Shown: positions 16,003 through 32,567 of the stretch, piece by piece
How positions within the stretch are numbered: position 1 is the stretch's first letter
Layout of the letters: each line of letters begins with the position of its first letter
Assembly: GCF_011044975.1 (NCBI RefSeq)
Contig: NZ_JAAKZV010000074.1
Location: forward strand, 1-32,567
DNA: 32,567 nt
Source of the DNA: Streptomyces coryli
GTDB taxonomy: Bacteria; Actinomycetota; Actinomycetes; Streptomycetales; Streptomycetaceae
Reading direction: 5' to 3'
Program-made: the position numbers and the translations under genes
The notes under the pieces: generated by a model
What the model was told of the DNA's origin: nothing
The model's database searches: none
Seen by the model: the letters and a program-made list of their open reading frames with translations, nothing else

Positions 16003-17136
16003 GTGGCGACGGACTACTACGCGATCCTCGGCGTCCAGCGCGACGCGTCCCAGGATGAGATCAAGAAGGCGTTCCGGCGGCTCGCCCGCGAGCTGCACCC
16101 GGACGTGAACCCGGATCCGAAGACCCAGGAGCGGTTCAAGGAGATCAACGCCGCCTACGAGGTCCTCTCCGACCCGGAGAAGAAGCAGATCTACGACCTC
16201 GGCGGCGACCCGCTGTCGCAGAACGGCGCCGGGGCCGGCGGCTTCGGCCAGGGCGGCTTCGGCAATTTCAGCGACATCATGGACGCCTTCTTCGGTACGG
16301 CGTCCCAGCGCGGCCCGCGCTCGCGCACCCGCCGCGGCCAGGACGCGATGATCCGCCTGGACGTGGAGCTCGACGAGTCCGCCTTCGGCACCACGAAGGA
16401 GATCACGGTCGACACGGCCGTGGTCTGCAATACGTGCAACGGCGAGGGCGCCGCCCCCGGCACCTCCCCGCAGACCTGTGACATGTGCCGCGGCCGCGGC
16501 GAGGTCTCGCAGGTCACCCGGTCCTTCCTGGGCCAGGTCATGACGTCCCGCCCGTGCCCGCAGTGCCAGGGCTTCGGCACCATCGTGCCGAGCCCGTGCC
16601 CGGAGTGCGCGGGCGACGGCCGGATCCGCTCGCGTCGTACGCTCACGGTCAAGATCCCGGCGGGCGTCGACAACGGCACCCGGATCCAGCTCGCGGGCGA
16701 GGGCGAGGTCGGCCCCGGCGGCGGCCCGGCCGGCGACCTGTACGTGGAGATCCACGAGCTGCCGCACCCCACCTTCCAGCGGCGCGGCGACGACCTGCAC
16801 TGCACGGTGACGATCCCGATGACGGCGGCCGCGCTGGGCACGAAGGTGAACCTGGAGACGCTGGACGGCCTCGAGGAGATCGACATCCGCCCCGGCACCC
16901 AGTCAGGACAGTCGGTCCCGCTGCACCAGCGCGGCGTCACGCACCTGCGCGGCGGCGGCCGCGGCGACCTGATCGTGCACGTCGAGGTGATCACGCCGAC
17001 GAAGCTGGACCAGGAGCAGGAGAAGCTGCTCCGCCAGCTCGCCAAGCTGCGCGACGAGGAGCGCCCGACCGGCCAGTTCCAGCCAGGCCAGCAGGGGCTG
17101 TTCTCGCGGCTGAAGGACGCGTTCAACGGAAGGTGA
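16003..17136 (+). CDS. dnaJ: Chaperone DnaJ
   Basis: 377 residues from a GTG start. The J domain carries HPD (32-34) for stimulating DnaK. A Gly/Phe-rich linker ([11 protein letters not shown]) follows, then four zinc-finger repeats: CNTCNGEG (from C142), [16 protein letters not shown] and CPECAGDG, and the two C-terminal substrate-binding beta domains. It is therefore a full-length type I DnaJ, the paralogue usually found behind hrcA in actinobacteria (often named dnaJ2) rather than the one with dnaK and grpE. Confidence 0.96.
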
Positions 17137-17212: not shown

Positions 17213-18277
17213 ATGCCCAGCGCGCTGAGTGATCTCTCACCGCACCCGATCGTGCAAGCCCCCATGGCCGGCGGTGCCAGCTGCCCCGCGCTGGCGGCAG
17301 CTGTGTGCTCCGCCGGTGCGCTCGGGTTCCTCGCCGCCGGATACAAGACGCCGGAGGCGATGTACGAGGAGATCCGCCAGCTCCGCGCGCTGACCGACCG
17401 CCCTTTCGGCGTGAACGTCTTCATGCCGCACCGGGGCACTCCCGAGGACGGCGCCCTGCTGTCGTACGCCGAGCAGCTCGCCGGCGAGGCGACCTGGCTG
17501 GAAGCCCCGCTGGGCGACCCGCACACCGGCGGCGAGGACGCGTACGACGGCAAGATCGCCGTGCTGCTCGACGATCCGGTGCCGCTGGTCTCGTTCACCT
17601 TCGGCTGCCCCGACCGCGCCGTCCTCGAGGCCTTCGCGCACGCGGGCACCCTCACCGCCGTCACCGTGACCAGCGCCTCCGAGGCGCAGGCCGCGCAGTC
17701 GGCGGGCGCCGACGCCGTCGTGGTGCAGGGCCTGGAGGCCGGCGGCCACCAGGCGGCCTTCCGCAACGATCCGCGCCAGGACTCCGCGGGCCGCGGCCTG
17801 CTCACGCTGCTGACCGAGGTCCGCGAGGCGGTCCCCGAGCTGCCGATGATCGCCGCCGGCGGCCTGATGCGCGGCGCGCAGATCGCCGCCGTCCTCGCTG
17901 CGGGCGCGCAGGCGGCCGCGCTGGGCACGGCGTTCCTGGTCTGCCCGGAGTCCGGGGCGCACGCGCTCCACAAGCAGGCCATCACCGGCAGCCTCTACAC
18001 CCGCACCGAGCTCACCCGCGCCTTCTCGGGCCGCCCGGCCCGCGGCCTGGTCAACCGCTTCCTGCGCGAGCACGGCCCGTACGCCCCGGCCGCCTACCCG
18101 CAGATTCACCACATGACCGCCCCGCTCCGCGCCGCCGCCGCGCAGACCGGCGACCCGCAGGGCATGGCGTTGTGGGCGGGCCAGGGCTTCGGTCTTGCCC
18201 GGGAGCTGCCGGCCGCGGAGCTGGTGGAGCTGCTCGGCGAGGAGCTGACGGCGGCGCTGTCGGGGAGCAAGCTGTGA
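17213..18277 (+). CDS. Nitronate monooxygenase-like flavoprotein
   Basis: 354 residues. The TIM-barrel signature includes the N-terminal PIVQAPMAGGAS, then FGVNVFMP, FTFGCPDR, GADAVVVQGLEAGGHQ and IAAGGLMRG with LGTAFLVCPESG for FMN phosphate binding. The GLEAGGH motif holds the His that acts as the active-site base in class I nitronate monooxygenases. It should oxidise nitronates (such as propionate 3-nitronate) with FMN and oxygen. Gene order hrcA-dnaJ-this-rsmE suggests part of the same operon, although 76 bases precede it. The ATG at 17213 is preferred over GTG 17207; CAACAT 6 bases upstream may be a leaderless -10. Confidence 0.88.
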   Translation: MPSALSDLSPHPIVQAPMAGGASCPALAAAVCSAGALGFLAAGYKTPEAMYEEIRQLRALTDRPFGVNVFMPHRGTPEDGALLSYAEQLAGEATWLEAPLGDPHTGGEDAYDGKIAVLLDDPVPLVSFTFGCPDRAVLEAFAHAGTLTAVTVTSASEAQAAQSAGADAVVVQGLEAGGHQAAFRNDPRQDSAGRGLLTLLTEVREAVPELPMIAAGGLMRGAQIAAVLAAGAQAAALGTAFLVCPESGAHALHKQAITGSLYTRTELTRAFSGRPARGLVNRFLREHGPYAPAAYPQIHHMTAPLRAAAAQTGDPQGMALWAGQGFGLARELPAAELVELLGEELTAALSGSKL

Positions 18278-19014
18278 CGGCGCCGGTGTTCGTGGTCGAG
18301 TCGCTCGCGACGGCGCAGGCCGGTGCGCAGGTCCGCCTCGACGGGCCCGAGGGCCGGCACGCCGTCTCCGTCCGCCGGCTCCGCGTCGGCGAAGAGATCA
18401 TTCTCACGGACGGGGCGGGGACCGGCGTATACGGCGAGGTGGCCGCCGTCGACGGCAAGGACGCGCTGACCGTGGCGGTCGCCGAGGTCCGTGACGAACC
18501 CGAGCCACAGCCCCGTATCACCGTCGTGCAGGCGCTCCCGAAGGGCGACCGCGGCGAGGTCGCCGTCGAGACCATGACCGAGACCGGCGTCGACGTGATC
18601 GTGCCCTGGTCCGCCGCCCGCTGCGTGACGCAGTGGCGCGGCGAGCGGGGCGCCAAGTCGCTGCGCAAGTGGCGGGCGACGGCCCGCGAGGCCGGGAAGC
18701 AGGCCCGTCGGCTGCGCTTCCCCGAGGTGACGGAGCCGCACTCCAGCAAGCAGCTCGCCGAGCTGCTGCAGGGCGCCGCCTTCGCCGCCGTGCTGCACGA
18801 GGAGGGCAGTGAGCCGCTCGCCCGTGCGGAGTTGCCCGCGGAGGGCGACATCGTGCTGGTCGTCGGCCCCGAGGGCGGTGTCTCTCCGGAGGAGCTTGCC
18901 ATCTTCGCCGCGGCCGGCGCAAAGCCGTGCCTGCTCGGCCCCACCGTGCTGCGTACGTCCACGGCGGGCACGGCCGCGGCCGCGGTGCTGCTGGCCAGGA
19001 CCGGGCGCTGGTAA
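18274..19014 (+). CDS. rsmE: 16S rRNA (uracil1498-N3)-methyltransferase RsmE
   Basis: 246 residues from a GTG that overlaps the preceding stop codon as GTGA. The N-terminal PUA-like domain includes GRHAVSVRRLRVGEEI; the SPOUT knot has VVGPEGGVSPEE and LGPTVLRTSTA, the SAM-binding loops of RsmE. The enzyme methylates U1498 of 16S rRNA using SAM. Its place after dnaJ is conserved in actinobacteria, for example in M. tuberculosis. Confidence 0.95.
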   Translation: MTAPVFVVESLATAQAGAQVRLDGPEGRHAVSVRRLRVGEEIILTDGAGTGVYGEVAAVDGKDALTVAVAEVRDEPEPQPRITVVQALPKGDRGEVAVETMTETGVDVIVPWSAARCVTQWRGERGAKSLRKWRATAREAGKQARRLRFPEVTEPHSSKQLAELLQGAAFAAVLHEEGSEPLARAELPAEGDIVLVVGPEGGVSPEELAIFAAAGAKPCLLGPTVLRTSTAGTAAAAVLLARTGRW

Positions 19015-19186: not shown

Positions 19187-22100
19187 ATGAAGGGCAGACA
19201 TGCCGCACCACGCGAACCGCGCGGCCACTGGCTGCTGCTGCTGACCGTCCTGCCGCTGGTCTTCGCGGCGGTGCTGTTCGAGGGCTGGACCACCCACCAG
19301 GTGGCCAACCCGGGCGGCCGGCAGGCCTGTACCAGCCCGGCGCCCGCGTCCGTCGACGACGGCGGCCCGGTCCGCTCGTACGAGCACGGGCGGCAGGTCT
19401 CCGACAAGGTGCCCGCCGGCACGATGGCGCTGACCGTCGACGGCGGCCCCGACCCGACCTGGACGCCGCGCGTCCTGGACCTGCTGCGGGAGAAGAAGGC
19501 GCACGCCACGTTCTTCGTGAACGGCGCGCAGGCGGCTCAACACCCGTATCTGCTGAAGAAGATCCGCGCGGCCGGGCACGAGATCGGCACCCTCAGCTAC
19601 ACCGGCGCCCCGCTCGGCACCGCCTCCGACCTGCGCCGCTCGATGGAGCTGTCGCTGGACCAGAAGGCGCTGGCGGGCGCCACCGGCTATCACACGAACC
19701 TGCTGCGGCTGCCGAAGAGTTCGGCGGTCGACACGCTGTGCGGCGCCGAGGGGGAGGCGGCGAAGCGGGCCACCGAGGACGGCTACACGGTGGTCGCCGC
19801 CGACAAGTGGTACCGGGACAACAACACCGGTGTGGTGCGGCAGTTCTCGCAGACCGAGACGGGATTCGCGCAGGCGGAGCAGCTGTTGAAGTCGCCCGGC
19901 GTGAAGAAGTTCTCGACGGTGACGAAGGCCACGGGCCGCGATCCGGCGGACGAGCGGGCGTCCAGTGCCGAGATCTGGCAGGGCATGGCGCTGATCGCCA
20001 TCCGCAATGTCAGCCACGCCTTCACCGGCGCGATGGGCTGGCTGCTCGGCATCACCATCGGCCTCGCCGCGCTGCGGCTGGTGCTGCTCTATTTCTGGGC
20101 CCGTACGCACGTCAAGCGGCTCGGCCGGTTCCGCCCCGGCTCGCCCTGGCTGCGCCAGGTCGACGGCCTGGTGACGGTCCTGGTGCCCGCGCACAACGAG
20201 GAGGCGGGCATCCAGTCCACCCTCCGCTCGCTGCTGGCCTCGACGCATCAGCAGCTGCAGATCGTGGTCATCGACGACGGCTCCGAGGACCGTACGTCCG
20301 AACTGGCCGCCGAAATGGGCGATCCCCGGGTCTTGGTGGTCAAACAGCCCAATTCCGGCAAGTCCGCCGCACTCAACACCGGCCTGAGCTATGCCGAGTC
20401 CGACATCGTGGTCATGGTCGACGGCGATACGGTCCTGGAGGCCGACGCCATCGAGCGGCTGATCCAGCCCCTCGCCCACCCCGCCATCGGCGCGGTCAGC
20501 GGCAACACGAAGGTCGGCAACCGCAAGCGGCTGCTGGGGCGCTGGCAGCACCTGGAGTACGTCTGCGGGTTCAACCTCGACCGGCGGATGTTCGACGTGC
20601 TGGAGTGCATCACGACCGTGCCCGGCGCGATCGGCGCCTTCCGGCGTACGGCCCTGGTCGGCGTCGGCGGCGTCAGCGACGACACCCTCGCCGAGGACAC
20701 CGACCTGACGATGGCGCTGTGGCGGGCCGGCTGGCGGGTGGTCTACGAGGAGACCGCCATCGCCTGGACCGAGGTCCCCACGACGCTGCGCCAGTTGTGG
20801 CGCCAGCGCTACCGCTGGTGCTACGGCACGCTGCAGGCGATGGGCAAGCACCGGCACGCGATCCGCGAGGTCGGCCAGGCGGGCCGCTTCGCGCGCCGCG
20901 GCCTGACGTACATCTCGGTCTTCCAGGTCGCGCTGCCGCTGCTCACGCCGCTGCTCGACGTCTTCGCGCTGTACGGGCTGCTGTTCGGCAATCCGATGAA
21001 GGCGGCCGGCGTGTGGATCGCCTTCATGGGCGCGCAGATGGCCGTCGCCGGCTACGCGCTGAAGCTGGACGGCGAACGGCTGCGCACGCTGTGGTCGATG
21101 CCGCTGCAGCTGTTCACGTACCGGCTGCTGATGTACCTGGTGGTGATCCAGTCGATGGTCACCGTGCTGGCGGGCATCCGGCTCAACTGGGGCCGGATGA
21201 AGCGCTCGGGCAGCGCCGCGGAGGAGATCGGCGGCATCGAGGTCACGCAGCCGAAGGAGCGGGAGGCGGTGGCGGTGAGCGGGTCGGTGGCGCTGTCCGG
21301 GGAGAGCGGCTACGAGACCGTGTCCGGGCACCAGCACATAGCCGGGCAGGTGCTCATACCTGGCCAGGGCGTTCCGGCCCCGGCGGGAGCGGCGCATGCA
21401 GCCGTCATGCCGAGACCCGCCGTCGCGACCGGCACGGTGCCGCACTGGCGCGCCAACGCGACCGGCACGGTCATCGTCACCCGTAACGCCCCCGCGACCC
21501 CGCTGTCGCCCGACGACATCGGCGGTAACGGCGGTGACATCGAACCGGACCTCGGCCCTCCGCAGGAGCCGTGGCGCCCCGCGCCGAAGAGCCGTCGCCG
21601 CCCGCGCCGCCTCCGCCGCGCGGTCGTCGTCCTCGCCTGCCTGGCGCTCCTCTCCCCGATCGGCGCCTACAGCTGGGCCGACAACTCCCTCAATCGCGGC
21701 CCGGACCTGGACCGCCTCAACAACCGCCCGCTCCCGGGCGACGGCACCAACTACCTCATCGTCGGCTCCGACAGCCGCTCCGGCCTCTCCAGCAAGGACC
21801 GCAAGAACCTCCACACCGGCGCCCCGGCAGGCCGCCGCACGGACTCGATGATCCTGCTGCACACCGGCAAGCACGGCACCACGATGACCAGCCTCCCGCG
21901 CGACTCCTGGGTGGACATGCCGTCGTTCATCCGGCCGGAGAACGGCAAGCAGTACGGCGCCGAGCACAACAAGCTCAACGCCGCGTTCTCCTACGGTGGC
22001 GCCCCGTTCCTGGTCAAGACCGTGGAGAAGAACACCGGCCTGCGCATCGACCACTACGCGGAGATCGGCTTCGCGGGCTTCGTCGGCATCGTCGATGCCG

Positions 22101-22600
22101 TCGGCGGCGTCGACATGTGCCTGGACAAGCCGATCAAGGACGAGAAGTCCGGCGCCGACCTGAAGAAGGGCTGCCAGACCCTGGACGGCTCCCAGGCGCT
22201 GGCCTTCGTACGGCAGCGGCACCAGGAGGCCGACGGCGACCTGGGCCGGGCCAAGAACCAGCAGAAGTTCCTGAGCGCCCTCGCCAAGCGGGCCGCGTCC
22301 AGGCAGGTCCTGCTGGACCCGGGCAAGATGCGCGACACCACGAAGGCCGGGCTCAAGTCGCTCATCGTGGACCAGGACACCGGCTTGCCCGACCTGGCGA
22401 AGCTGGCGCAGGCGATGCAGAAGGTGTCGCAGGGCAAGGGGAAGCGGGTGGAGCTGCCGATCGCAGACAAGTACCACTGGACCGACAAGGGCAGCAGCGT
22501 GCTGTGGGACAAGAAGCGCGCGAACGCGCTCTTCGAGCGGCTGCGCAAGGACGAGCCGGTGCCCGCCAAGTGGGGAGCCGAAGATCCCGGAAAGCCATAG
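19187..22600 (+). CDS. Pseudo-deacetylase / family-2 glycosyltransferase / LCP ligase fusion
   Basis: 1137 residues in one open frame from an ATG preceded by GGGAG. Residues 15-31 are a membrane anchor. About 75-240 form an extracytoplasmic NodB-type deacetylase fold, but motif 1 is TVDGGPD (Asp85 kept, second Asp now Gly86) and the His pair is Leu136/Gly140, so the metal site is gone. After a membrane segment (~275-302) comes a cytoplasmic GT2 domain with VTVLVPAHNEE (329-339), DDGS (363-366), DGD (412-414), AEDTD (502-506) and QRYRW (540-544), all intact for processive synthesis, followed by several membrane helices. A cytoplasmic-type linker (~680-800), one more helix (~808-826), then an LCP domain with GSDSR (860-864), RTDS (884-887), LPRDS (903-907) and FVRQRH (1007-1012). 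The predicted role is synthesis and export of a polysaccharide and its attachment to peptidoglycan; the polymer is unknown. Confidence 0.85.
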   Translation: MKGRHAAPREPRGHWLLLLTVLPLVFAAVLFEGWTTHQVANPGGRQACTSPAPASVDDGGPVRSYEHGRQVSDKVPAGTMALTVDGGPDPTWTPRVLDLLREKKAHATFFVNGAQAAQHPYLLKKIRAAGHEIGTLSYTGAPLGTASDLRRSMELSLDQKALAGATGYHTNLLRLPKSSAVDTLCGAEGEAAKRATEDGYTVVAADKWYRDNNTGVVRQFSQTETGFAQAEQLLKSPGVKKFSTVTKATGRDPADERASSAEIWQGMALIAIRNVSHAFTGAMGWLLGITIGLAALRLVLLYFWARTHVKRLGRFRPGSPWLRQVDGLVTVLVPAHNEEAGIQSTLRSLLASTHQQLQIVVIDDGSEDRTSELAAEMGDPRVLVVKQPNSGKSAALNTGLSYAESDIVVMVDGDTVLEADAIERLIQPLAHPAIGAVSGNTKVGNRKRLLGRWQHLEYVCGFNLDRRMFDVLECITTVPGAIGAFRRTALVGVGGVSDDTLAEDTDLTMALWRAGWRVVYEETAIAWTEVPTTLRQLWRQRYRWCYGTLQAMGKHRHAIREVGQAGRFARRGLTYISVFQVALPLLTPLLDVFALYGLLFGNPMKAAGVWIAFMGAQMAVAGYALKLDGERLRTLWSMPLQLFTYRLLMYLVVIQSMVTVLAGIRLNWGRMKRSGSAAEEIGGIEVTQPKEREAVAVSGSVALSGESGYETVSGHQHIAGQVLIPGQGVPAPAGAAHAAVMPRPAVATGTVPHWRANATGTVIVTRNAPATPLSPDDIGGNGGDIEPDLGPPQEPWRPAPKSRRRPRRLRRAVVVLACLALLSPIGAYSWADNSLNRGPDLDRLNNRPLPGDGTNYLIVGSDSRSGLSSKDRKNLHTGAPAGRRTDSMILLHTGKHGTTMTSLPRDSWVDMPSFIRPENGKQYGAEHNKLNAAFSYGGAPFLVKTVEKNTGLRIDHYAEIGFAGFVGIVDAVGGVDMCLDKPIKDEKSGADLKKGCQTLDGSQALAFVRQRHQEADGDLGRAKNQQKFLSALAKRAASRQVLLDPGKMRDTTKAGLKSLIVDQDTGLPDLAKLAQAMQKVSQGKGKRVELPIADKYHWTDKGSSVLWDKKRANALFERLRKDEPVPAKWGAEDPGKP

Positions 22601-22630: not shown

Positions 22631-25600
22631 GTGGTGACGCACCCTGCCTACCTCCGTTACCCGCATCTCCACGACGACCTGGTGACCTTCACCGCCGAGG
22701 ACGACGTCTGGGCGGCCCCGCTGACCGGCGGCGGCCGCGCCTGGCGGGTCAGCGCCGACAACGTGCCCGTGACGCACCCGCGCCTCTCCCCGGACGGCGC
22801 GCACCTCGCGTGGACCTCCACCCGCGACGGCGCCCCCGAGGTCCTGGTGGCGCCGGTCGACGGCGGGCCCGCGACGCGGCTGACCCACTGGGGCAGCAAC
22901 AAGACGTCCGTACGCGGCTGGACCCCGGACGGCCGGGTGCTGGCCATCAGCACGTACGGGCAGGCCTCGCTGCGCCGCAGCTGGGCGTGGGCGGTCCCGG
23001 TGGACGGGAGCCCGGCCGAGTGGCTGCCTTACGGGCCGGTGGGCGATGTCGCGTCCGGGCCCGAGGGGCGGGTCCTGCTGCTGTCGGCGACGATGGGCCG
23101 CGAGGCCGCGTACTGGAAGCGCTACCGGGGCGGCACGGCGGGCAAGTTGTGGCTGGCCCTGCCGGACGGTGACGGCGAGTTCGCCCGTATCCACGCGGAG
23201 CTGAACGGCAACATCGAATGCCCGCTGTGGGTCGGCGACCGGCTCGCCTTCCTCTCCGACCACGAGGGCACGGGCGCGCTGTACTCGTCCCTCCCGGACG
23301 GCTCGGACCTGCGCCGGCACACCCCGCTCGACGGCTTCTACGCCCGGCACGCCGCCACCGACGGCACCCGCGTCGTGTACGCCTCCGCCGGTGAACTCCA
23401 CGTCCTGGACAGCCTCGACGAGGGCGCCGAGCCGCGCCCCCTCCCCGTCCACCTCGGCGGCCAGCGCACCGACCAGCGCCCGCGCCCCGTGGACCCGGCC
23501 GGCTGGCTGGGCGCCGCCCGCCCCGACCACACGGCCCGCGGCAGCGCCGTGCTCGTCCGCGGCTCGCTGCACTGGATCACCCACCGCGAGGGCCCGGCCC
23601 GCGCGCTCGCCGCCGAGCCGGGGGTACGGGCCCGGCTGCCGCGGGTGTTCCGGGTGGCGGCCGAGGAGCACATCGTCTGGGTCACCGACGCCGAGGGCGA
23701 GGACGCCCTGGAGACCGCTCCGGCGACCGGCCTCGCCCCCGGCGCCACCCCGCGCCGGCTGGCGCGCGGCGAACTCGGGCGGGTGGTGGACCTCGCGGTC
23801 TCGCCCGACGGCAGCCGCTTCGCGGTCGCCACGCACGACGGGCGGGTGCTGCTGGTGGACCGTACGAGCGGGGAGTCGCGCGAGGTCGACCGCAGCGCGT
23901 ACGACCGGGCGAGCGGCCTGGTCTTCTCGCCGGACGGCGCCTGGCTGGCCTGGTCCCATCCGGGGCCCGCGGACCTGCGGCAGCTGAAGCTGGCCGCGAC
24001 CGCCGATCTGGCCGTGGCCGAGGCGACGCCGCTGCGCTTCGACGACTTCTCGCCCGCCTTCACGGCGGACGGCAAGCATCTGGCGTTCCTCTCCGAGCGG
24101 GCCTTCGACCCGGTATACGACCGGCACAGCTTCGACCTGTCCTTCCCCAATGCCTGCCGCCCGCACCTGATCACGCTCGCCGCGGACACCCCGTCGCCGT
24201 TCGGGCCGCAGCGGCACGGCCGCCCGTCGGAGAAGCCCAAGGACGACGAGGACTCGGACGCGGTGCCCGCCACCCGCGTCGACCTCGAAGGGCTCGCGGA
24301 CCGGATAGTCCCGTTCCCGGTCGAGGCGTCCCGCTACTCCACCCTCCGGGCCGCCGAGAACGGCGTGCTGTGGCTGAAGCACCCGCTCACCGGCGTCCTC
24401 GGCACCGCCCTCGCCAACCCCGACGACGACGGCCCGTCGACCGCGCTCGAGCGCTACGACCTGGCCCAGCAGCGGCTGGAGGAACTGGCCGACGACGCCG
24501 ACTCGTACGCGGTCAGCGGCGACGGCAAGCGGGTGCTGCTGCGCACGAACGGCAAGCTCAAGGTGGTCCCGGCGGACCGCAAGACCACCCGCCACGACGA
24601 GGACGACGACGGCAACGGCTCCCGTATCACCGTCGACGTCTCCCGGATCCGCCACCTGGTCGACCCGGCCGCGGAATGGCGGCAGATGTACGCCGAGGCG
24701 GGCCGCCTGATGCGGGACAACTTCTGGCGCGCCGACCTGAGCGGCGTCGACTGGGACGGCGTCCTGGACCGCTACCGCCCGGTCCTCGACCGCGTCGCCA
24801 CCCACGACGACCTGGTCGACCTGCTGTGGGAGGTGCAGGGCGAGCTGGGCACCTCGCACGCGTACGTGACGCCGCACGGCGGCTACGACCCGGCGGTGCG
24901 GCAGGGGCTGCTGGGCGCGGACATCTCCCGGGACGCCGAGGGTCTTTGGCGGGTGGACCGGGTGCTGCCGTCGGAGTCCTCCGACCCGCGCGCCCGCTCC
25001 CCGCTGGCCGCCCCTGGCGCGGCCGTGCGCCGGGGCGACGCGATCGTGGCGGTGGACGGCCGACCCGTCGATACGGAGACGGGGCCCGGGCCGCTGCTGA
25101 CGGGCGCCGCGGGCAAGCCGGTCGAGCTCGCCATTTCACCGGCGGGCGGCGGCGAGGTGCGGCACGCGGTGGTCGTCCCCATCGCCGACGAGGAGCCGCT
25201 GCGCTACCACGCCTGGGTCGCCGACCGCCGCGCGTATGTGCACGAGCGCTCCGGCGGCCGCCTCGGCTACCTGCACGTACCCGACATGCAGGCGCCCGGC
25301 TGGGCGCAGATCCACCGCGACCTGGGCGTCGAAGTCGCCCGCGAGGGGCTGGTGGTGGACGTACGGGAGAACCGCGGCGGGCACACCTCGCAGCTGGTGG
25401 TGGAGAAGCTCGCCCGCCGGATCGTCGGCTGGGACCTGCCGCGCGACGGGCAGCCGCAGAGCTATCCGGCCGACGCGCCGCGCGGCCCGGTGGTGGCGGT
25501 GGCGAACGAGTTCTCCGGCTCGGACGGCGACATCGTCAACGCGGCCATCAAGGCGCTCGGCATCGGCCCGGTCGTGGGCGTACGCACCTGGGGCGGCGTC

Positions 25601-25849
25601 ATCGGCATCGACAGCCGCTACCGCCTGGTCGACGGGACCCTTGTCACCCAGCCCAAGTACGCCTTCTGGCTGGAGGGTCCTGGCTGGGGCGTGGAGAACT
25701 ACGGCGTCGACCCGGACGTCGAGGTCGTGCACGCGCCGCAGGACTCGGTCGCGGGCCGCGACCCGCAGCTGGACGAGGCGATCCGGATCGCGCTGGCGGC
25801 GCTGGCGGAGAACCCGGCCAAGACGCCGCCGGAACGGCCGGAGTTGTAA
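22631..25849 (+). CDS. tri1: Tricorn protease homologue (S41 peptidase)
   Basis: 1072 residues from a GTG (a second GTG follows at once at 22634, so the exact start is uncertain). Two beta-propeller regions (about 10-320 and 330-560, with repeats of the SPDG(A/S) type) are followed by a mixed domain, a PDZ domain (~765-860) and the S41 core. The catalytic residues of Thermoplasma tricorn (Ser745, His746, Ser965, Asp966, Glu1023) are matched by GTSHAY (Ser742, His743), EFSGSDGD (Ser964, Asp965) and VENYGVDPD (Glu1022). It should degrade oligopeptides released by the proteasome or other proteases, in the cytoplasm. It starts 30 bases after the fusion gene and converges on the RpiR gene, with 25 bases between stops. 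Confidence 0.93.
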   Translation: MVTHPAYLRYPHLHDDLVTFTAEDDVWAAPLTGGGRAWRVSADNVPVTHPRLSPDGAHLAWTSTRDGAPEVLVAPVDGGPATRLTHWGSNKTSVRGWTPDGRVLAISTYGQASLRRSWAWAVPVDGSPAEWLPYGPVGDVASGPEGRVLLLSATMGREAAYWKRYRGGTAGKLWLALPDGDGEFARIHAELNGNIECPLWVGDRLAFLSDHEGTGALYSSLPDGSDLRRHTPLDGFYARHAATDGTRVVYASAGELHVLDSLDEGAEPRPLPVHLGGQRTDQRPRPVDPAGWLGAARPDHTARGSAVLVRGSLHWITHREGPARALAAEPGVRARLPRVFRVAAEEHIVWVTDAEGEDALETAPATGLAPGATPRRLARGELGRVVDLAVSPDGSRFAVATHDGRVLLVDRTSGESREVDRSAYDRASGLVFSPDGAWLAWSHPGPADLRQLKLAATADLAVAEATPLRFDDFSPAFTADGKHLAFLSERAFDPVYDRHSFDLSFPNACRPHLITLAADTPSPFGPQRHGRPSEKPKDDEDSDAVPATRVDLEGLADRIVPFPVEASRYSTLRAAENGVLWLKHPLTGVLGTALANPDDDGPSTALERYDLAQQRLEELADDADSYAVSGDGKRVLLRTNGKLKVVPADRKTTRHDEDDDGNGSRITVDVSRIRHLVDPAAEWRQMYAEAGRLMRDNFWRADLSGVDWDGVLDRYRPVLDRVATHDDLVDLLWEVQGELGTSHAYVTPHGGYDPAVRQGLLGADISRDAEGLWRVDRVLPSESSDPRARSPLAAPGAAVRRGDAIVAVDGRPVDTETGPGPLLTGAAGKPVELAISPAGGGEVRHAVVVPIADEEPLRYHAWVADRRAYVHERSGGRLGYLHVPDMQAPGWAQIHRDLGVEVAREGLVVDVRENRGGHTSQLVVEKLARRIVGWDLPRDGQPQSYPADAPRGPVVAVANEFSGSDGDIVNAAIKALGIGPVVGVRTWGGVIGIDSRYRLVDGTLVTQPKYAFWLEGPGWGVENYGVDPDVEVVHAPQDSVAGRDPQLDEAIRIALAALAENPAKTPPERPEL

Positions 25850-25874: not shown

Positions 25875-26768
25875 TTACGCCTTGCGCGACCCCCGCTCCC
25901 GCTGGCCCAGGATCCGCTCGCGCAGCGCCGTCAGCTGATGCGAGGTCTCGACCGCGCGCGGCTCGTCCAGCGCGGCGAGCGCGAGCAGCAGCGCGTCGGC
26001 CACCAGCAGGCCGCCCAGCGACTCGGTGGTGATGCCGGTCGGCGAAGGCGAGGTGGTGAGCGCCGCCTCGACGCGGTCGGCATACGTATCGGCGAGCGTG
26101 TCGGTGACCAGCAGCACCTTCGCGCCGACGGTACGGGCGCGGTCCACCAGCAGCTCTATCTCGGCGAGTTCGCGGCCGGGCTGGAAGAGGACGACCACGT
26201 CGCCGCGGTCCAGGGACAGCAGCGGGTCCGCGAGGGCGAAGCCGGTGGCGCCGACGAAGCGGGCCCGGCGGCCGATCCGGCCCAGCGCGAGCGCGAGATG
26301 GCGGGCGGCGAGCTCGGATGCGGCCACGCCGTAACAGAACACCTCGCGGGCCTCGGCCAGGGCGGCCACCGCGCGCTTGAGGGTGTCGGAGCCGGTGAGC
26401 CGGCGGCCGTGCTCGATGCGCTCCTGTGCCTCGTCGAAGACGTCGTTCCAGACCCCGTCGAGGTCCCGGCCGACGTGGTGGATGCGCTGCTGCAGCCGCA
26501 CCTCCGGGGAGACGGCGGTGGTGAAGTCGGCCGCCAGCTCGCGCTTGAGGGCGGGCAGGCCGCCGTAGCCGAGGCGCTTGAGGGCGCGCACGGCGGTGGC
26601 ATTGCTGGTGCCGCTCGCGGCGCCCAACTCCTGGGCGCTGGCGAAGAGAAGCTGCTCCACCGGCGCACTCACCAGGTAATGCGCCACGGCGCGCTCCGAT
26701 GCCGACAACTCCTCCCAGCTGTCCCGCACGGCGGTGCGGAGCCGGGTCAACCCGTCTGAAACTTCCAT
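25875..26768 (-). CDS. RpiR/MurR-family regulator (HTH + SIS)
   Basis: 297 residues. The N-terminal HTH_6 domain (~1-80) has LSASERAVAHYLV and the recognition part ASGTSNATAVRALKRLGYGG. The SIS sugar-phosphate domain (~120-255) includes REVFCYGVAASELAARHLALAL and GDVVVLFQPGRELAEI. Family members respond to phosphosugars or N-acetylmuramic acid 6-phosphate. The ATG at 26768 has AGAGGAG 12 bases upstream on the minus strand. It is divergent from the C45/peptide-transport operon, which it probably regulates. It is not co-oriented with the tricorn gene. Confidence 0.88.
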   Translation of the reverse strand: MEVSDGLTRLRTAVRDSWEELSASERAVAHYLVSAPVEQLLFASAQELGAASGTSNATAVRALKRLGYGGLPALKRELAADFTTAVSPEVRLQQRIHHVGRDLDGVWNDVFDEAQERIEHGRRLTGSDTLKRAVAALAEAREVFCYGVAASELAARHLALALGRIGRRARFVGATGFALADPLLSLDRGDVVVLFQPGRELAEIELLVDRARTVGAKVLLVTDTLADTYADRVEAALTTSPSPTGITTESLGGLLVADALLLALAALDEPRAVETSHQLTALRERILGQRERGSRKA

Positions 26769-26881: not shown

Positions 26882-28039
26882 ATGGCGACGCGCACCCTCC
26901 CGGTCATCGAGATCTCCGGCAGCCCGGCCGAGCGCGGGCGGCAGTACGGAGAGGCCGTCCGGCCGCTGCTGCACGCCTCCCTGGCCTATTACGAGGCGGC
27001 CTTCGCCGCGTCCTCCGGGCTGACCTGGGAGGAGGTGACCCGGCGCGCGGCCCGCTGGCTGGATCCGGTGCGGTCGTACGCGCCGCATCTCGTCGAGGAG
27101 ATGGCGGGCATCGCGGAGGGCGCCGGGGTGGAGCTGCTCGACGTGCTCGCGCTCAATGCCCGCGGCGAGGTGCTCTACGACAGCTCCTTCGCCGCTATGG
27201 CGGAGGCGCGCGAGCCGGAGCGCAGCCCGGAGCCCGCTGAGGGCTGCACCTCCTTCGCCCTGTACGGCGAGGCCAGCGGCGACGGGCATGTGTACGCCGG
27301 GCAGAACTGGGACTGGCGCGCCGGCGTAGGCGACACCGTCGTCATGCTGCGCGTCGTCCAGCCGCCGAAGCCCACGCTGATCATGCAGGTCGAGGCCGGC
27401 CAGATCGGCCGCCAGGGCGCCAACTCCGCGGGCCTCGCGCTGAACGCCAATGGTCTCGGCGGCCGCTTCGACGACGCCGTCGGGCTGCCGCAGACCGTGA
27501 TCCGGCGCAGCGTGCTCGACCAGCCGTCGATCACCGACGCGCTCGACGTGCTGTGCTCCACCCGCGCCCACATCGCCAGCAACGCGCTGCTGACCTGCCG
27601 CGAGGGCTACGCCGTGGACCTGGAGACGACCCCCGCGGGCGTCGGCTGGCTGCACCCGAGCGACGGGCTGCTGGTGCACGGCAACCACTACCAGGCGCAC
27701 ATCCCCGCCGAACTCGCCGCCGGCTACCGCCCGATGTCCTCCGACTCGCTGGTGCGCGTCCCGCGCGCCGAGGACGGCCTGAAGGCGCTGCGCGGCGCCA
27801 CCACGCAGACGGAGTCGCTGAAGCTGATCCGCCGCGCGATGTCCGACCACCTCGGCTATCCCGAGTCGCTGTGCACCCACCCCGACACCCGCAGGCCCGA
27901 GCTCGGCCGCTGGGCCACGCTCGTCTCCTCCTGCGCCGACCTCACCACCGGCGACTACTGGATAACTCCCGGCACCCCCTGCGACCGCGAGTACCAGCAC
28001 CTGCCGTGGAACCTCTACGACGGCCCGCACGCCGGCTGA
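26882..28039 (+). CDS. C45-family autoproteolytic acyltransferase/hydrolase
   Basis: 385 residues from the ATG at 26882, which has AAGGAGAAG just upstream; a GTG at 26834 is in frame but lacks this. The family is related to acyl-CoA:6-aminopenicillanate acyltransferase (penicillin biosynthesis) and is an Ntn-hydrolase: autocleavage exposes the Cys in EGCTSF (Cys122) as the N-terminal nucleophile. VYAGQNWDW and HGNHYQ match the family's substrate-pocket blocks. No signal peptide, so cytoplasmic. It is the first gene of a peptide-uptake operon, which suggests hydrolysis or acyl transfer on an imported N-acyl amino acid or peptide. Bacterial members are seldom characterised. Confidence 0.88.
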   Translation: MATRTLPVIEISGSPAERGRQYGEAVRPLLHASLAYYEAAFAASSGLTWEEVTRRAARWLDPVRSYAPHLVEEMAGIAEGAGVELLDVLALNARGEVLYDSSFAAMAEAREPERSPEPAEGCTSFALYGEASGDGHVYAGQNWDWRAGVGDTVVMLRVVQPPKPTLIMQVEAGQIGRQGANSAGLALNANGLGGRFDDAVGLPQTVIRRSVLDQPSITDALDVLCSTRAHIASNALLTCREGYAVDLETTPAGVGWLHPSDGLLVHGNHYQAHIPAELAAGYRPMSSDSLVRVPRAEDGLKALRGATTQTESLKLIRRAMSDHLGYPESLCTHPDTRRPELGRWATLVSSCADLTTGDYWITPGTPCDREYQHLPWNLYDGPHAG

Positions 28040-28068
28040 CCCGCCCGAAGCCCTCAGGGAGCCCCGCC

Positions 28069-29706
28069 ATGAAGCTCACCCATACGCTCACCACGGCCGC
28101 CGCCTGTATGGCCGGTGCGCTCGCCCTCGCCGGCTGCGGCGGCGCACCGGACAACTCCGGCGGCTCCGGCAAGAAGGCCGCCAACCTGAAGCTCACCGCC
28201 ACCACCCCGGCCGCGAACGGCCCGGCCGGCACGGTCAAGTGGCTGCTCGAGGACGAGCCCGACTCCCTCGACCTGGACACCCAGGGCACCAGCGCGGGCC
28301 GCGTCATCCTCAGCAACGTCTGCGAGCGGCTCTACCAGCTGCGGCCCGACATGTCCGTACGGCCGCATCTGGCGGCCAAGGAGAGCCGCCCCGACGACCG
28401 CACCCTCGTCCTCACCCTCCGCGACGACGTCACCTTCCACGACGGCGCGAAGATGACCGCGGACGACGTGCTGTTCAGCCTGAAGCGGCATGCCGCCGAC
28501 GGCATGGAGCAGAGCGACGAGTTCGAGCATGTGAAGTCGATGAAGGCCACCGGCGAGCACGAGATCACGGTCCGCTTCAGCCGCCCCGACGCCATGTTCG
28601 CCAAGGCCCTCGCGGGCGACGCGGGCATCATCTACCAGCGCAAGGCCGTCGAGAAGGCGGGCAAGGAGTTCGGCACCCCCGGCCGGCCCGACGCCTGCAC
28701 CGGGCCGTATGCGCTGCAGAGCTGGAAGTCCGGCGACTCGGTCGCCATCGCGCGCTACGACGACTACTGGGGCAAGAAGCCGCTGACCGGCAAGGTGGTC
28801 TTCACCTGGGCCGCCGACAGCGCGATGGTCAACGCGCTGAAGACCGGCGCCGCCGACGGCGCGTACACCGAGGCCCCCAACACCGCCGCGGCGCTGGACT
28901 CCGCCAAGGGCGTCGACCTGCACTTCGGTCCGTCCACCGCCGTGCTGACGCTGATGCCCACCGAGCGCGGCGGTCTCGCGGACCCCAAGATCCGCCGCGC
29001 CCTGTCGCTGGCCCTCGACCGCACCGGCATCGCCAAGTCCGGCTACGGCGGGCTGGTCGAGCCGTGGAACCTGCCCGCGGGCTCCGGCGCCTGGGGCTAC
29101 GAGAAGGCGGCCTTCGCCGCCGCCCAGAAGTCGACCGGGCACGCCCCCGCCAAGCCGGGCGCGAAGGACCTGGCCCGGGCGAAGGAGCTCGTCAAGGAAG
29201 CGGGCGTACCCAAGGACCCGATCCTCATCGGCACGGACTCCACCCAGGGCCGTACGGTCATGGCCAACGCGGTGCGGGCCGCGCTGGAGCAGATAGGGCT
29301 CCGGGGCGAGATCAAGACCGTGCCGCCGTCGGAGTTTGAAACCTTCTACGGGGACAAGGCCAAGCGGGCCGAGGTCGATCTCTTCGTCGGCGACTGGTAC
29401 ATCTCCAAGAGCGACCCGGTCGGCGTGCTGGACAACGCCCTGTCCGGCAGCGAGAACAACTGGACGGGCTTCAAGGACAAGGCGTACGACGCCGCCGTCA
29501 ACAAGGCGCTGGCCACCATCGACGACGCCGAGCGGGCCCGGCTGACGGTGAAGGCGCAGCGGCTGTTCACGGACGCCAGCGTGTGGATACCGGTCGCGCA
29601 GATCCCGTCCACGCTGATCCTGAGCGGCAAGCTGACCGGTGCGCCGGCGTCCATGGCCTACCTCTACTACCCGTGGGCCGCCGACCTCGGCGCGAAGAAG
29701 GGCTGA
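28069..29706 (+). CDS. Opp/Dpp-type peptide ABC transporter substrate-binding lipoprotein
   Basis: 545 residues. The signal peptide ends with the lipobox LAGC (Cys23), followed by a Gly/Ser tether. The SBP_bac_5 fold is clear: LEDEPDSLDLDTQG, the DDVTFHDGAKMTADDVLFSLKR signature (written here in part) and late FVGDWYISKSDPVGVLDNALSG. It would bind oligopeptides or related ligands outside the membrane and deliver them to the two permeases encoded next. The ATG at 28069 has CAGGGAG upstream and lies 29 bases after the C45 stop. Confidence 0.93.
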   Translation: MKLTHTLTTAAACMAGALALAGCGGAPDNSGGSGKKAANLKLTATTPAANGPAGTVKWLLEDEPDSLDLDTQGTSAGRVILSNVCERLYQLRPDMSVRPHLAAKESRPDDRTLVLTLRDDVTFHDGAKMTADDVLFSLKRHAADGMEQSDEFEHVKSMKATGEHEITVRFSRPDAMFAKALAGDAGIIYQRKAVEKAGKEFGTPGRPDACTGPYALQSWKSGDSVAIARYDDYWGKKPLTGKVVFTWAADSAMVNALKTGAADGAYTEAPNTAAALDSAKGVDLHFGPSTAVLTLMPTERGGLADPKIRRALSLALDRTGIAKSGYGGLVEPWNLPAGSGAWGYEKAAFAAAQKSTGHAPAKPGAKDLARAKELVKEAGVPKDPILIGTDSTQGRTVMANAVRAALEQIGLRGEIKTVPPSEFETFYGDKAKRAEVDLFVGDWYISKSDPVGVLDNALSGSENNWTGFKDKAYDAAVNKALATIDDAERARLTVKAQRLFTDASVWIPVAQIPSTLILSGKLTGAPASMAYLYYPWAADLGAKKG

Positions 29707-29712
29707 TCCGCC

Positions 29713-30684
29713 GTGTCCTCACCGGTCCGCCTGTTCGCCGCCGCCGGGCGGCGCGCCGCGGGGCTGTTCGCGACGCTGCTGGCCGCCTCGTTCGTCATCT
29801 TCGCGGCCGTGTACGTCGCGCCCGGCGACCCCGCGGTGTTCCTCGCCGGCGGCCGCGACAAGCTCACCGCCGAGCGGCTCGCCGAGGTGCGGGCGCAGTA
29901 CCACCTGGACGAGCCGCTGGTCGTCCAGTACGGCCGCTGGCTGTGGGACTGCCTGCACCTCGACCTCGGCCGCTCGTTCAAGTACAACGACCAGGTCGCC
30001 GACCTGCTCACCGGCCGGCTGCCGACCACGCTCGCGCTGGTCGGGTATGCCACGGTGCTGTTCGTCGTGCTCGGCGTCGGCGCCGGGATGCTGGCGGCGA
30101 TACGGCGCGGGACCTGGGTGGACTCGACGGTCGTCGGCGGCACCACGCTCGCCGCGTCGGTGCCCAATTTCGTCGCCGCCATCGCGCTCGTGTCGCTGTT
30201 CGGCGTCCGGCTCGGCTGGTTCCCGGTCACCGGCGGCGGCTCCGGCTTTACGGGCACCCTGCACCATCTCACCCTGCCCGCCTTGTCGATGGCGCTCGGC
30301 GCCCTTGCCGTCATCAGCCGCGTCACCCGCCAGTCCATGGTGGAGGCGGGCGACGCCGACCACGTAGAGGCGGCGCGGGCCGGCGGGCTGCCGGAGCGGC
30401 AGATCGTGCTGCGGCACGTGCTGCGCAACGCCCTCGCCCCGATCGCCACGATGTGCGGCCTGATCATGGCCGGGATGCTGGCCGGGACGGTCGTCATCGA
30501 GACCGCCTTCGGCCTGAGCGGCATCGGCTCGCTGCTGGTGAACGCCATCAACACCCACGACTTCCCGGTCGCCCAGGCGGTGCTGCTGCTCATGGTCACC
30601 GGTTACGTCGTGGTGACGACCGCCGTCGATCTCGCCCATCCGCTGCTGGACCCGCGGGTGAAGGCCGGAAGGAGCGCCGTATGA
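29713..30684 (+). CDS. Peptide ABC transporter permease (DppB/OppB type)
   Basis: 323 residues from a GTG 6 bases after the binding-protein stop. Six hydrophobic segments and the cytoplasmic EAA loop (VEAARAGGLPERQIVLRHVL) that contacts the ATPase are present. The N-terminal FVAPGDPAVFLAGG type sequence (read YVAPGDPAVFLAGG here) is typical of OppB/DppB. It forms the transmembrane channel with the next gene product, whose start codon overlaps its stop by ATGA. Confidence 0.93.
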   Translation: MSSPVRLFAAAGRRAAGLFATLLAASFVIFAAVYVAPGDPAVFLAGGRDKLTAERLAEVRAQYHLDEPLVVQYGRWLWDCLHLDLGRSFKYNDQVADLLTGRLPTTLALVGYATVLFVVLGVGAGMLAAIRRGTWVDSTVVGGTTLAASVPNFVAAIALVSLFGVRLGWFPVTGGGSGFTGTLHHLTLPALSMALGALAVISRVTRQSMVEAGDADHVEAARAGGLPERQIVLRHVLRNALAPIATMCGLIMAGMLAGTVVIETAFGLSGIGSLLVNAINTHDFPVAQAVLLLMVTGYVVVTTAVDLAHPLLDPRVKAGRSAV

Positions 30685-31565
30685 CCACCGCGCCCGCACC
30701 CGCGGCAGCCAGCGCAGCCACCGCTCCCGCGGGGACGCTCTTCCCCTCCCGCCCGCGCGCCCAGCGGCCCTGGGCGGTCATCGCCGCCGGTGCCTTCCTC
30801 GGACTCGTCGTGCTGGCCGCGGTGTTCGCGCCGCTGCTGGCGCCGTACGCGCCCGACGAGGTCGACCTGTCGCAGTCGCTGGCCGGCCAGTCGGGCGCGC
30901 ATCTCCTCGGCACCGACGCCTCCGGGCAGGACCTGCTCTCGCGAGTGCTGCACGGCGCCCGCGGCAGCCTCGTCGCGCCGCTGGCGCTGCTGGCCGTGGC
31001 CGCCGTCCTCGGCGTCACGCTCGGCACGGTCGCGGCCTGGCGCGGCGGCTGGGTGGACACGCTGCTGTCCCGGACGACCGACGTCATGTACGCCTTCCCC
31101 GGGCTGCTGTTCGTGGTCCTGATCATCGCCGTGTTCGGCGCCGGGATGACCACGTCGGTGCTCGCGCTCGGCCTCGCGTACACCCCGACCGTCGCCAAAT
31201 ACACCCGCAGCATCGCGATGTCCGAGCGCGCCAAGCCGTACATCGAGGCGTACCGGGTGCAGGGCATGTCGGGCACCCGGATCTGCGTCGCGCATCTGGT
31301 GCCGAACCTCGGGCGGCTGGTGGTCGGTTATCTGGTGGTGCTCTTCGGTGAGGCGCTGATGAGCCTGGCCACGCTCAGCTATCTCGGCTTCGGCGCCCAG
31401 CCGCCCAGCTCGGACTGGGGGCTGATGGTCCAGGAAGGGCAGGCGGCCGTCGTCCAGGAGGCGCTGCTGCCGGCGCTGGTGCCGGGCGCGGCCATCGCCG
31501 CCGTGGTGGTGTCCTTCAACATCGTCGGCGTCTGGCTCGCCGACCGGCTCGGCAGCAGGAGGTAG
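30681..31565 (+). CDS. Peptide ABC transporter permease (DppC/OppC type)
   Basis: 294 residues from the ATG at 30681 (GGAAGGAG upstream, ATGA overlap with the preceding gene). The N-terminal OppC segment is followed by APYAPDEVDLSQ and HLLGTDASGQDLLSRVLHGAR, which is characteristic of OppC/DppC, then the EAA-like loop YIEAYRVQGMSGTRICVAHL. It pairs with the upstream permease. The N-terminal tail is rich in Ala and Pro. Confidence 0.93.
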   Translation: MTTAPAPAAASAATAPAGTLFPSRPRAQRPWAVIAAGAFLGLVVLAAVFAPLLAPYAPDEVDLSQSLAGQSGAHLLGTDASGQDLLSRVLHGARGSLVAPLALLAVAAVLGVTLGTVAAWRGGWVDTLLSRTTDVMYAFPGLLFVVLIIAVFGAGMTTSVLALGLAYTPTVAKYTRSIAMSERAKPYIEAYRVQGMSGTRICVAHLVPNLGRLVVGYLVVLFGEALMSLATLSYLGFGAQPPSSDWGLMVQEGQAAVVQEALLPALVPGAAIAAVVVSFNIVGVWLADRLGSRR

Positions 31566-31568
31566 CCC

Positions 31569-32567
31569 GTGTCGCTTCTTTCCCTCGAAGGCCTGACGCT
31601 CCGGCTGCCCGGCGGCGCCCGCCCGGTGCTCGCGGACGTATCGCTACGGGTCGCCGCCGGCGAAGTGGTCGGCCTGGTCGGCGAGTCGGGCTCCGGCAAG
31701 TCGACCACGGCCAAGGCGGTGCAGCGGATGCTGCCAGCGGGCGCCGAGACCTCGGGCCGGGTGCTGGTGGACGGCGCCGACGTGCTCGCCCTGTCCGCGG
31801 CGGAGCTGCGCGCGCACCGCGCCCGTACGGTCGCGATGATCCACCAGGACCCGCGCGCCGCCCTCAACCCGGTGCGCCGCATCGGCGACTTCCTCACCGA
31901 GCGGCTGGCCCTGCGCACCCCGGGCCTCGATCGCACCACCGCCCGCGACCGCGCCGTGGCCCTGCTCGAATCGGTCGGGTTGCCGGAGCCGCAGCGCCGC
32001 ATCCGGCAGCGGCCGCACGAACTCTCCGGCGGCATGCTGCAGCGCGTCGTCATCGCGGGCGCGCTGGCCGCCGAGCCGCGGCTGCTGCTCGCCGACGAGG
32101 CCACCAGCGCACTGGACGTCACCACCCAGGCGGAGATCCTCGCCCTGCTGCGCGGCGTGCGCGCGGAGCGGGAGCTCGGCATGCTGTTCATCACCCACGA
32201 CCTGCACCTGGCGGCGGCGTACTGCGACCGCGTGTACGTGATGTACGCGGGCGCGGTCGTCGAAGAGCAGCCCGCGGACGCCCTGTTCGACCGGCCCCGG
32301 CACCCGTACACGAGGGGCCTGCTCGCCTGCTCGCCGGAGCTCGGCGACGACCGGCCGATCCGCCCGATACCGGGCCGCCCGCTGTCACTGGCGGACGGCT
32401 ACACGGGCTGCCCGTTCGCCGCCCGCTGCCCCGAGGCGGAGGACGCCTGCCGGACGTGGACGCCGGAGCCGGTGCCGCTGGCGGGTGGCGGCACGGCGGC
32501 GTGCCGGCTGCTGTCCGCGCCCGCCGGCGCGGCCGCCGCCCCCACCGCCCCTGCCGCGGAAGCCGCC
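31569..32567 (+). CDS. Peptide ABC transporter ATPase (DppD/OppD type), 3' end outside the window
   Basis: At least 333 residues; no stop codon is reached. The GTG at 31569 follows AGGAGG, which overlaps the preceding stop. Walker A is GESGSGKST (38-46), signature LSGGMLQR (from Leu152), Walker B LLLADEATSALD (Asp176, Glu177) and the switch His in ITHD. The C-terminal oligo-HPY region (RPRHPYTRGLL and the cysteines in CPFAARCPEAEDAC) is typical of OppD/DppD. A second ATPase (OppF/DppF) is expected just beyond the window. Confidence 0.93.
   Translation, partial: MSLLSLEGLTLRLPGGARPVLADVSLRVAAGEVVGLVGESGSGKSTTAKAVQRMLPAGAETSGRVLVDGADVLALSAAELRAHRARTVAMIHQDPRAALNPVRRIGDFLTERLALRTPGLDRTTARDRAVALLESVGLPEPQRRIRQRPHELSGGMLQRVVIAGALAAEPRLLLADEATSALDVTTQAEILALLRGVRAERELGMLFITHDLHLAAAYCDRVYVMYAGAVVEEQPADALFDRPRHPYTRGLLACSPELGDDRPIRPIPGRPLSLADGYTGCPFAARCPEAEDACRTWTPEPVPLAGGGTAACRLLSAPAGAAAAPTAPAAEAA

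Follow-up and report, generated by a model that had tools for sequence, protein, structure and literature searches.

The window analyzed here, a 32,567-nucleotide stretch of Streptomyces coryli (contig NZ_JAAKZV010000074.1, positions 1 to 32,567 of the forward strand), contains at 19187..22600 (+) one open reading frame (ORF) that encodes a deacetylase-like domain, a processive family 2 glycosyltransferase (GT2, hereafter GT) and a wall-ligase domain of the LCP type. As the arrangement of their genes in related streptomycetes indicates, the GT and LCP parts belong to a portable two-gene module, and we read the ORF as a lineage-specific fusion of this module in which the GT would make and export a glycan that its LCP partner fixes to peptidoglycan, a reading to which we assign about an even chance. 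The module is better established than the fusion, of which this window is so far the only example, and a direct hand-over between the two enzymes is put forward as a hypothesis. The conserved pair, fused in one lineage, points to a candidate synthase for a single LCP clade and opens the question of its polymer to testing, and the fusion itself, unusual and awaiting confirmation, suggests that the GT and LCP enzymes work together.

Conservation of the GT-LCP gene pair in Streptomyces

Relatives were collected by one genome scan with six seed peptides, two of them from the LCP part, which yielded 16 loci, all in Streptomyces, S. nigrescens HEK616 and S. aurantiacus JA 4570 among them; further copies were found with the whole ORF or DNA as query. 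Among 91 copies whose GT is 56% or more identical to that of the window (and reaches residue 640, identical 210-nt C-terminal stretches counted once), 85, the window included, carry an LCP gene on the same strand at most 2.5 kb downstream. The remaining six comprise one decayed copy (L015), two at contig ends (L175, L169) and three that are LCP-less over at least 3.6 kb (L181, L184, L185). A further 13 copies fall below 56% identity, none of them with an LCP gene, namely the intermediates L182, L183 and L186-L188 and eight distant copies including L084.

The initial annotation had regarded the GT2 and LCP parts as partners, and this proposal is borne out well beyond the window: the LCP gene is a same-strand neighbor of the GT gene in 84 further copies, the two halves co-diverge, and 25 of 83 pairs show a four-base overlap between the GT stop and the start of the LCP gene. 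All 84 of these copies are split, so that only the window holds both parts in one frame. LCP homology begins at most 900 nt from the GT stop in 83/84, the exception being L113, where an IS605-type OrfB gene (L113:5686-6894; PF01385, with a Cas12f1-like TNB domain) lies between the two. At all 13 loci for which longer flanks were read, GT and LCP genes lie side by side, again with the intervening gene in L113, and no further gene family, with genes called by a simple codon score, is common to more than three of these loci. Since the pair is constant at 13/13 loci and other families occur at three at most, we consider it, on the evidence of these sequences, a portable streptomycete two-gene module. 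A chance joining of unrelated genes in the window was rejected, as the partners are neighbors in 84/84 other LCP-bearing copies.

Pairwise distances of the GT and LCP halves, compared for the 37 pairs with both halves full-length, correlate with a Pearson coefficient of 0.97 and a Spearman coefficient of 0.82, values to which shared descent contributes; 0 of 2000 permutations gave a correlation as high. The same loci, L022, L018 and L048 (at 65-67%), are the three nearest to either half of the window ORF, and differences between the window and three relatives are fewest at codon position 2 and most at position 3. A full-length alignment with split rows was dropped, its LCP rows standing at 17-22%, i.e. 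misplaced.

At E-values of up to 1e-200 the GT gene was matched in 59 of 372 Streptomyces genomes; at eight of these sites no LCP gene follows. Within 60 class-wide genomes, six besides G005 gave GT-type matches (43-53% identity, blastp), with no LCP gene in the adjoining stretch examined. Viral contigs contained no relative of the ORF, and none of the 30 plasmid records matched had a place covering 80% of the query. The nearest DNA match over the whole GT part is about 75%, and no nearer relative of the ORF was present in 249 family genomes, 372 genus genomes or 296 relatives of G222, which are overlapping sets. Four of the eight LCP-less intermediates (L182, L183, L186 and L188) encode a conserved protein of 466-477 aa downstream of the GT, for which the L186 representative (L186:3295-4722) gave no Pfam match. 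Damaged copies also occur: in Streptomyces sp. MZ04 (L015:7995-9743) a truncated GT frame passes into the final portion of an LCP domain, and at L116:6221-8319 (G282) the GT gene is split over two overlapping frames.

Domain architecture and predicted topology

The frame is open from ATG to TAG over 1137 codons with zero internal stops, in agreement with the initial annotation, and contains the following features.

19187..22600, +, single ORF: pseudo-deacetylase, GT2 synthase, linker and LCP domain, 1137 aa (ORF, Pfam, codon statistics)
19223..19279, +, first hydrophobic helix, N-terminal anchor, residues 13-31 (hydropathy)
19406..19741, +, CE4/NodB-type domain (PF01522), metal-ligand triad lost (TVDGGP; LSYTG) (Pfam, alignments)
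20018..20089, +, second hydrophobic helix, residues 278-301 (hydropathy)
20171..20827, +, GT2 domain with motifs VIDDGS, DGD, EDTD and QRYRW (Pfam, alignments)
20900..21052, +, two hydrophobic stretches 3' of the GT domain, residues 572-603 and 604-622 (hydropathy)
21086..21175, +, third hydrophobic stretch, residues 634-663, putative interface or transmembrane helix (hydropathy; interface reading suggested by PMC11750622)
21179..21211, +, RLxW....RxG motif, residues 665-675, resembling the cytosolic gating loop of hyaluronan synthase (alignment; analogy)
21212..21619, +, linker, residues 676-811, between the GT C-terminal tail and the LCP N-terminal tail (codon statistics, alignments)
21254..21278, +, possible relic of a separate LCP start: Shine-Dalgarno-like stretch and in-frame GTG at 21275 overlapping a next-frame TGA (GTGA)
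21620..21676, +, hydrophobic helix before the LCP domain, residues 812-830 (hydropathy)
21836..22297, +, LCP domain (PF03816; TIGR00350) (Pfam, NCBIfam, alignment)

Pfam matches above their gathering scores cover residues 74-185 (PF01522), 329-547 (PF13641/PF00535) and 884-1037 (PF03816), and third-position GC amounts to 0.82-1.00 per 40-codon block up to residue 1120 and to 0.72 in the final 18 codons. The three domains named in the initial annotation are all present as folds, with the GT and LCP motifs kept; the deacetylase survives as a fold alone, its metal ligands being gone.

The match to PF01522 reaches 77.9 bits (gathering score 23.1). Alignment to solved CE4 chains and the 99-row alignment of relatives agree that all three positions of the Asp-His-His metal triad are altered in the window, and the domain looks catalytically dead, so that the product is probably not deacetylated by this protein. 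We counted the triad in the 99 copies with an N-terminus, excluding the distant copy L084, which has no N-terminal part; L175 and L169 are triad-less and were placed in neither the paired nor the LCP-less group. The full triad is found in 0/82 LCP-paired copies (76 retain no ligand, six retain one) and in 0/8 of the nearer, intermediate LCP-less copies (seven retain one ligand, one none), and in 7/7 distant relatives at 43-48% identity, which have no LCP gene in the 1.25-1.5 kb downstream. Because the intermediate LCP-less copies have lost it as well, the degenerate deacetylase is a mark of the larger clade and not of LCP pairing alone, and a loss tied to the LCP partner was rejected on the same 8/8 count.

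A similar arrangement is found in MatB (SCO2962) of S. lividans and S. coelicolor, a protein with CE4 and GT2 domains described as required for poly-N-acetylglucosamine (poly-GlcNAc) in S. lividans (PMC5972031), which like the window ORF has an outside N-terminal deacetylase-type domain, a helix and an inside GT2 domain (PMC4391728, PMC5972031). Unlike MatB, which was compared by its description only, the window ORF has lost the CE4 triad and has an LCP part attached; we infer that the seven distant triad-keeping relatives are the MatB-like ones. The best NCBIfam match of the GT is to the PgaC/IcaA type (TIGR03937, 194.5 bits), and the corresponding DxD, ED and QxxRW motifs are present in the window and kept in 99/99 aligned copies. 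The score is below the equivalog cut-off of 422.3, so that the GT is not filed as PgaC. No third gene is common to all 13 module loci, and thus neither one such as matA nor a PgaD/IcaD-like helper.

Hyaluronan synthases, likewise GT2 enzymes, match the window over the GT core, and the Trp/Arg/Gly motif that follows the last helices of the GT (W668, R673 and G675, invariant in 99/99 copies) resembles their WGTSGRK/R gating loop. According to PMC11750622, this loop is cytosolic and lies after interface helix 3 and before further helices, and a similar motif is also present in chitin and cellulose synthases. The GT of the split relatives ends soon after the motif, whereas the fused protein has the LCP helix as its next one. 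If RLxW....RxG is the gating-loop equivalent, as the analogy suggests, the GT C-terminus would lie inside, followed by the LCP helix and an LCP domain outside. Nine Lys/Arg within the 15 residues preceding the LCP helix provide a positive charge that fits an N-in helix. The topology proposed in the initial annotation, from the N-terminal anchor to an outside LCP domain, is plausible, with the linker being cytoplasmic only if the third hydrophobic stretch is not a membrane span. Profile matches to solved structures stopped short of the GT C-terminus.

With 160.3 bits against a gathering score of 24.6 for PF03816, and with TIGR00350 also above its cut-off, the LCP domain is like the known ligases TagTUV, Cps2A, CglA and PdtA, with which it shares conserved Arg/Asp motifs; unlike these, it is part of a GT2 polypeptide, and LytR_C is absent among the Pfam matches on the ORF. 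The motifs GSDSR, RTDS, SLPRD, VRQRH and GDLGR...NQQ occur in the window and across the 37 pairs, five of six being kept with small variants in 37/37 and the sixth in 34/37 among the rows listed. We take the Asp and Arg residues of these motifs to be catalytic, the comparison with Cps2A and TagT being one of motifs and not a residue-by-residue alignment. For most streptomycete LCP ligases we know of no assigned polymer. General support for active-site Asp/Arg residues in LCP proteins is given in PMC7831098, which also describes Cps2A with bound octaprenyl-pyrophosphate, and LCP proteins are reported to attach glycopolymers to peptidoglycan (PMC7831098, PMC11481543). By sequence, the LCP domain of the window is predicted to be a phosphotransferase acting on lipid-linked glycans. 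No title or opening abstract line among the best matches in the open-access literature describes a GT2-LCP fusion or this gene pair, an absence that is weak evidence, since most subscription journals lie outside this body.

The junction and the status of the fusion

The GT gene of the listed LCP-paired copies stops 12-29 residues past residue 677-680, with the exception of L051 (broken frame), and the frame of the window continues past this point. The GTG/TGA overlap found here resembles the arrangement in many split relatives, and the chance of such a Shine-Dalgarno-like stretch with GTGA in frame within 20 codons, estimated from the window's own genes, is about 0.035. The site is suggestive of a former LCP start, and one frame change at 21254-21278, whether natural or a reading error, is enough to convert the usual pair into a single ORF. 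Across residues 641-925, scored in 30-codon windows, the ORF frame outscores both other forward frames throughout; its coding score falls as far as -17.8 over residues 716-745, a stretch in which one reverse frame does better (-2.2). The LCP N-terminal tails of relatives dip too, so that the dip alone is no sign of error: on a scale from a different training set 6/7 fall below zero, clearly in L022, L050, L003 and L064 (minimum -11 to -13), slightly in L016 and L021, and not in L063, and the window minimum on that scale is -5.

The fusion is not a conserved domain order. The initial annotation had asked how many genomes keep it, and had named close relatives with two separate genes and the same junction as evidence against it; two separate genes at that junction are what every relative with both parts has (84/84). 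A widespread fused family was rejected on this ground and because 392 Streptomyces genomes yielded no DNA similar to the junction, where the sole match comprised the first 135 of 701 bases and a diverged fusion would be missed. The split relatives make the ORF either a lineage-specific fusion or a one-base error at the overlapping stop and start, and they are no proof of the latter. We regard it as rather unlikely, though a serious contender, that a sequencing or assembly error merged the usual two overlapping genes, one base having been gained or lost, or a stop misread, near 21254-21278. Such an error would be in keeping with the split state of all other copies, with the placement of a GTGA overlap and Shine-Dalgarno-like stretch just at the expected GT end, and with the G-rich and repetitive nature of this stretch; the LCP gene is moreover out of the GT frame in 52/84 copies, where a single length error would suffice (same frame in 32/84). 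It is opposed by those other window genes that were scanned, none of which was seen to be split, and by codon usage, which is typical in frame 1 until about residue 715 and poor for frame 2 in every 30-codon window, a piece of about 10 codons being below the resolution.

Proposed function and alternative explanations

In the lineage-specific fusion that we favor, the GT domain would polymerize a UDP-sugar, which kinship with PgaC/IcaA and MatB suggests to be of the GlcNAc type, and thread the chain through its own helices, the exported product being an N-acetylated hexosamine polymer. The non-catalytic CE4 domain may bind the emerging acetylated chain, and the LCP domain, tethered outside, would transfer the chain, as such or linked to a primer, to peptidoglycan. 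The fusion would set the synthase:ligase ratio at one to one, and the internal GTG may still yield some free LCP protein. For staphylococcal poly-GlcNAc, partial deacetylation is reported to be required for retention at the cell surface (PMC9965654), and the loss of the deacetylase therefore fits another mode of anchoring, in which covalent attachment would substitute for the charge-based retention of the deacetylated polymer. The combination of a degenerate deacetylase in a synthase with a ligase partner suggests an acetylated, covalently held product, and hence that polymers of processive GT2 enzymes, usually considered free or charge-held, may be covalently anchored. The fusion, if true, would offer a single taggable protein for testing synthesis and ligation.

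Direct hand-over from GT to LCP is the weakest step of this proposal and chemically not obvious, because to our knowledge processive GT2 synthases of this kind do not leave polyprenyl-pyrophosphate on the chain. Known LCP enzymes use polyprenyl-pyrophosphate-linked donors, and no further gene, hence no polyprenyl-primer enzyme, is common to the 13 module loci. Other observations weigh against the proposal as well: no second fused copy (0/84) and no similar junction DNA in the 392 genomes was found; the ligand loss in the CE4 domain is, judged from the copies compared, untied to the LCP partner and came first or independently; a third hydrophobic stretch (634-663) that crossed the membrane would place the linker outside and give the LCP helix the wrong orientation; and in both trees the window sits on a long branch (0.79 and 0.64), which leaves the exact placement of its halves unsure.

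Three further explanations were considered. The fusion may be real with the LCP half ligating another lipid-linked wall polymer, e.g. of the teichoic type, and the GT merely placing it or sharing its control. We hold this to be unlikely, slightly more so than an error at the junction: the polyprenyl-pyrophosphate-linked donors of LCP enzymes, unlike the known products of processive GT2 synthases, speak for it, as does the number of LCP proteins in streptomycetes (11 in S. coelicolor, PMC11481543), whereas a GT-LCP pair that is kept at many sites, with no other gene common to more than 3/13 loci, and that co-diverges weighs against it. A fused copy heading for decay, with the fusion as a useless by-product, appears quite improbable; the long branches and the existence of decayed copies (L015, L116) would agree with it, and the intact catalytic motifs in both halves, the high third-position GC and the concentration of differences at codon position 3, with the lowest number at position 2, would not. 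Similarly improbable in our view is the most far-reaching version, namely one polypeptide performing synthesis, export and covalent anchoring, with the LCP domain taking the chain straight from the synthase channel and no dedicated polyprenyl-pyrophosphate pathway involved. The LCP helix would then pack behind the gating-loop motif, in the place taken by further helices in hyaluronan synthases, and, if true, this would add a further wall-glycopolymer route beside the Wzx/Wzy-type and ABC-type routes.

Genomic context

In the window, the module is located between rsmE (18274-19014) and a gene for a tricorn-type protease (22631-25849), with dnaJ farther upstream (16003-17136; all by Pfam), preceded by an hrcA-like frame assigned by eye. 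Both rsmE and the tricorn gene are present at 9/14 relatives' loci with a spacing of 183-2119 nt, which leaves no room for the module there. The DNA of the hrcA-dnaJ stretch has a maximum identity of 85-87%, to genomes in the family of G005 (Streptomyces), and a comparison of the flanking DNA with 394 family genomes, 227 of which were scored, revealed no close relative of the source. Farther downstream, at 26882-32567, an AAT-type acyltransferase gene (PF03417) adjoins a gene for a family 5 solute-binding protein, with permease- and ATPase-like frames nearby (by eye), and an RpiR/SIS-type regulator is encoded at 25875-26768 on the strand opposite to the acyltransferase gene.

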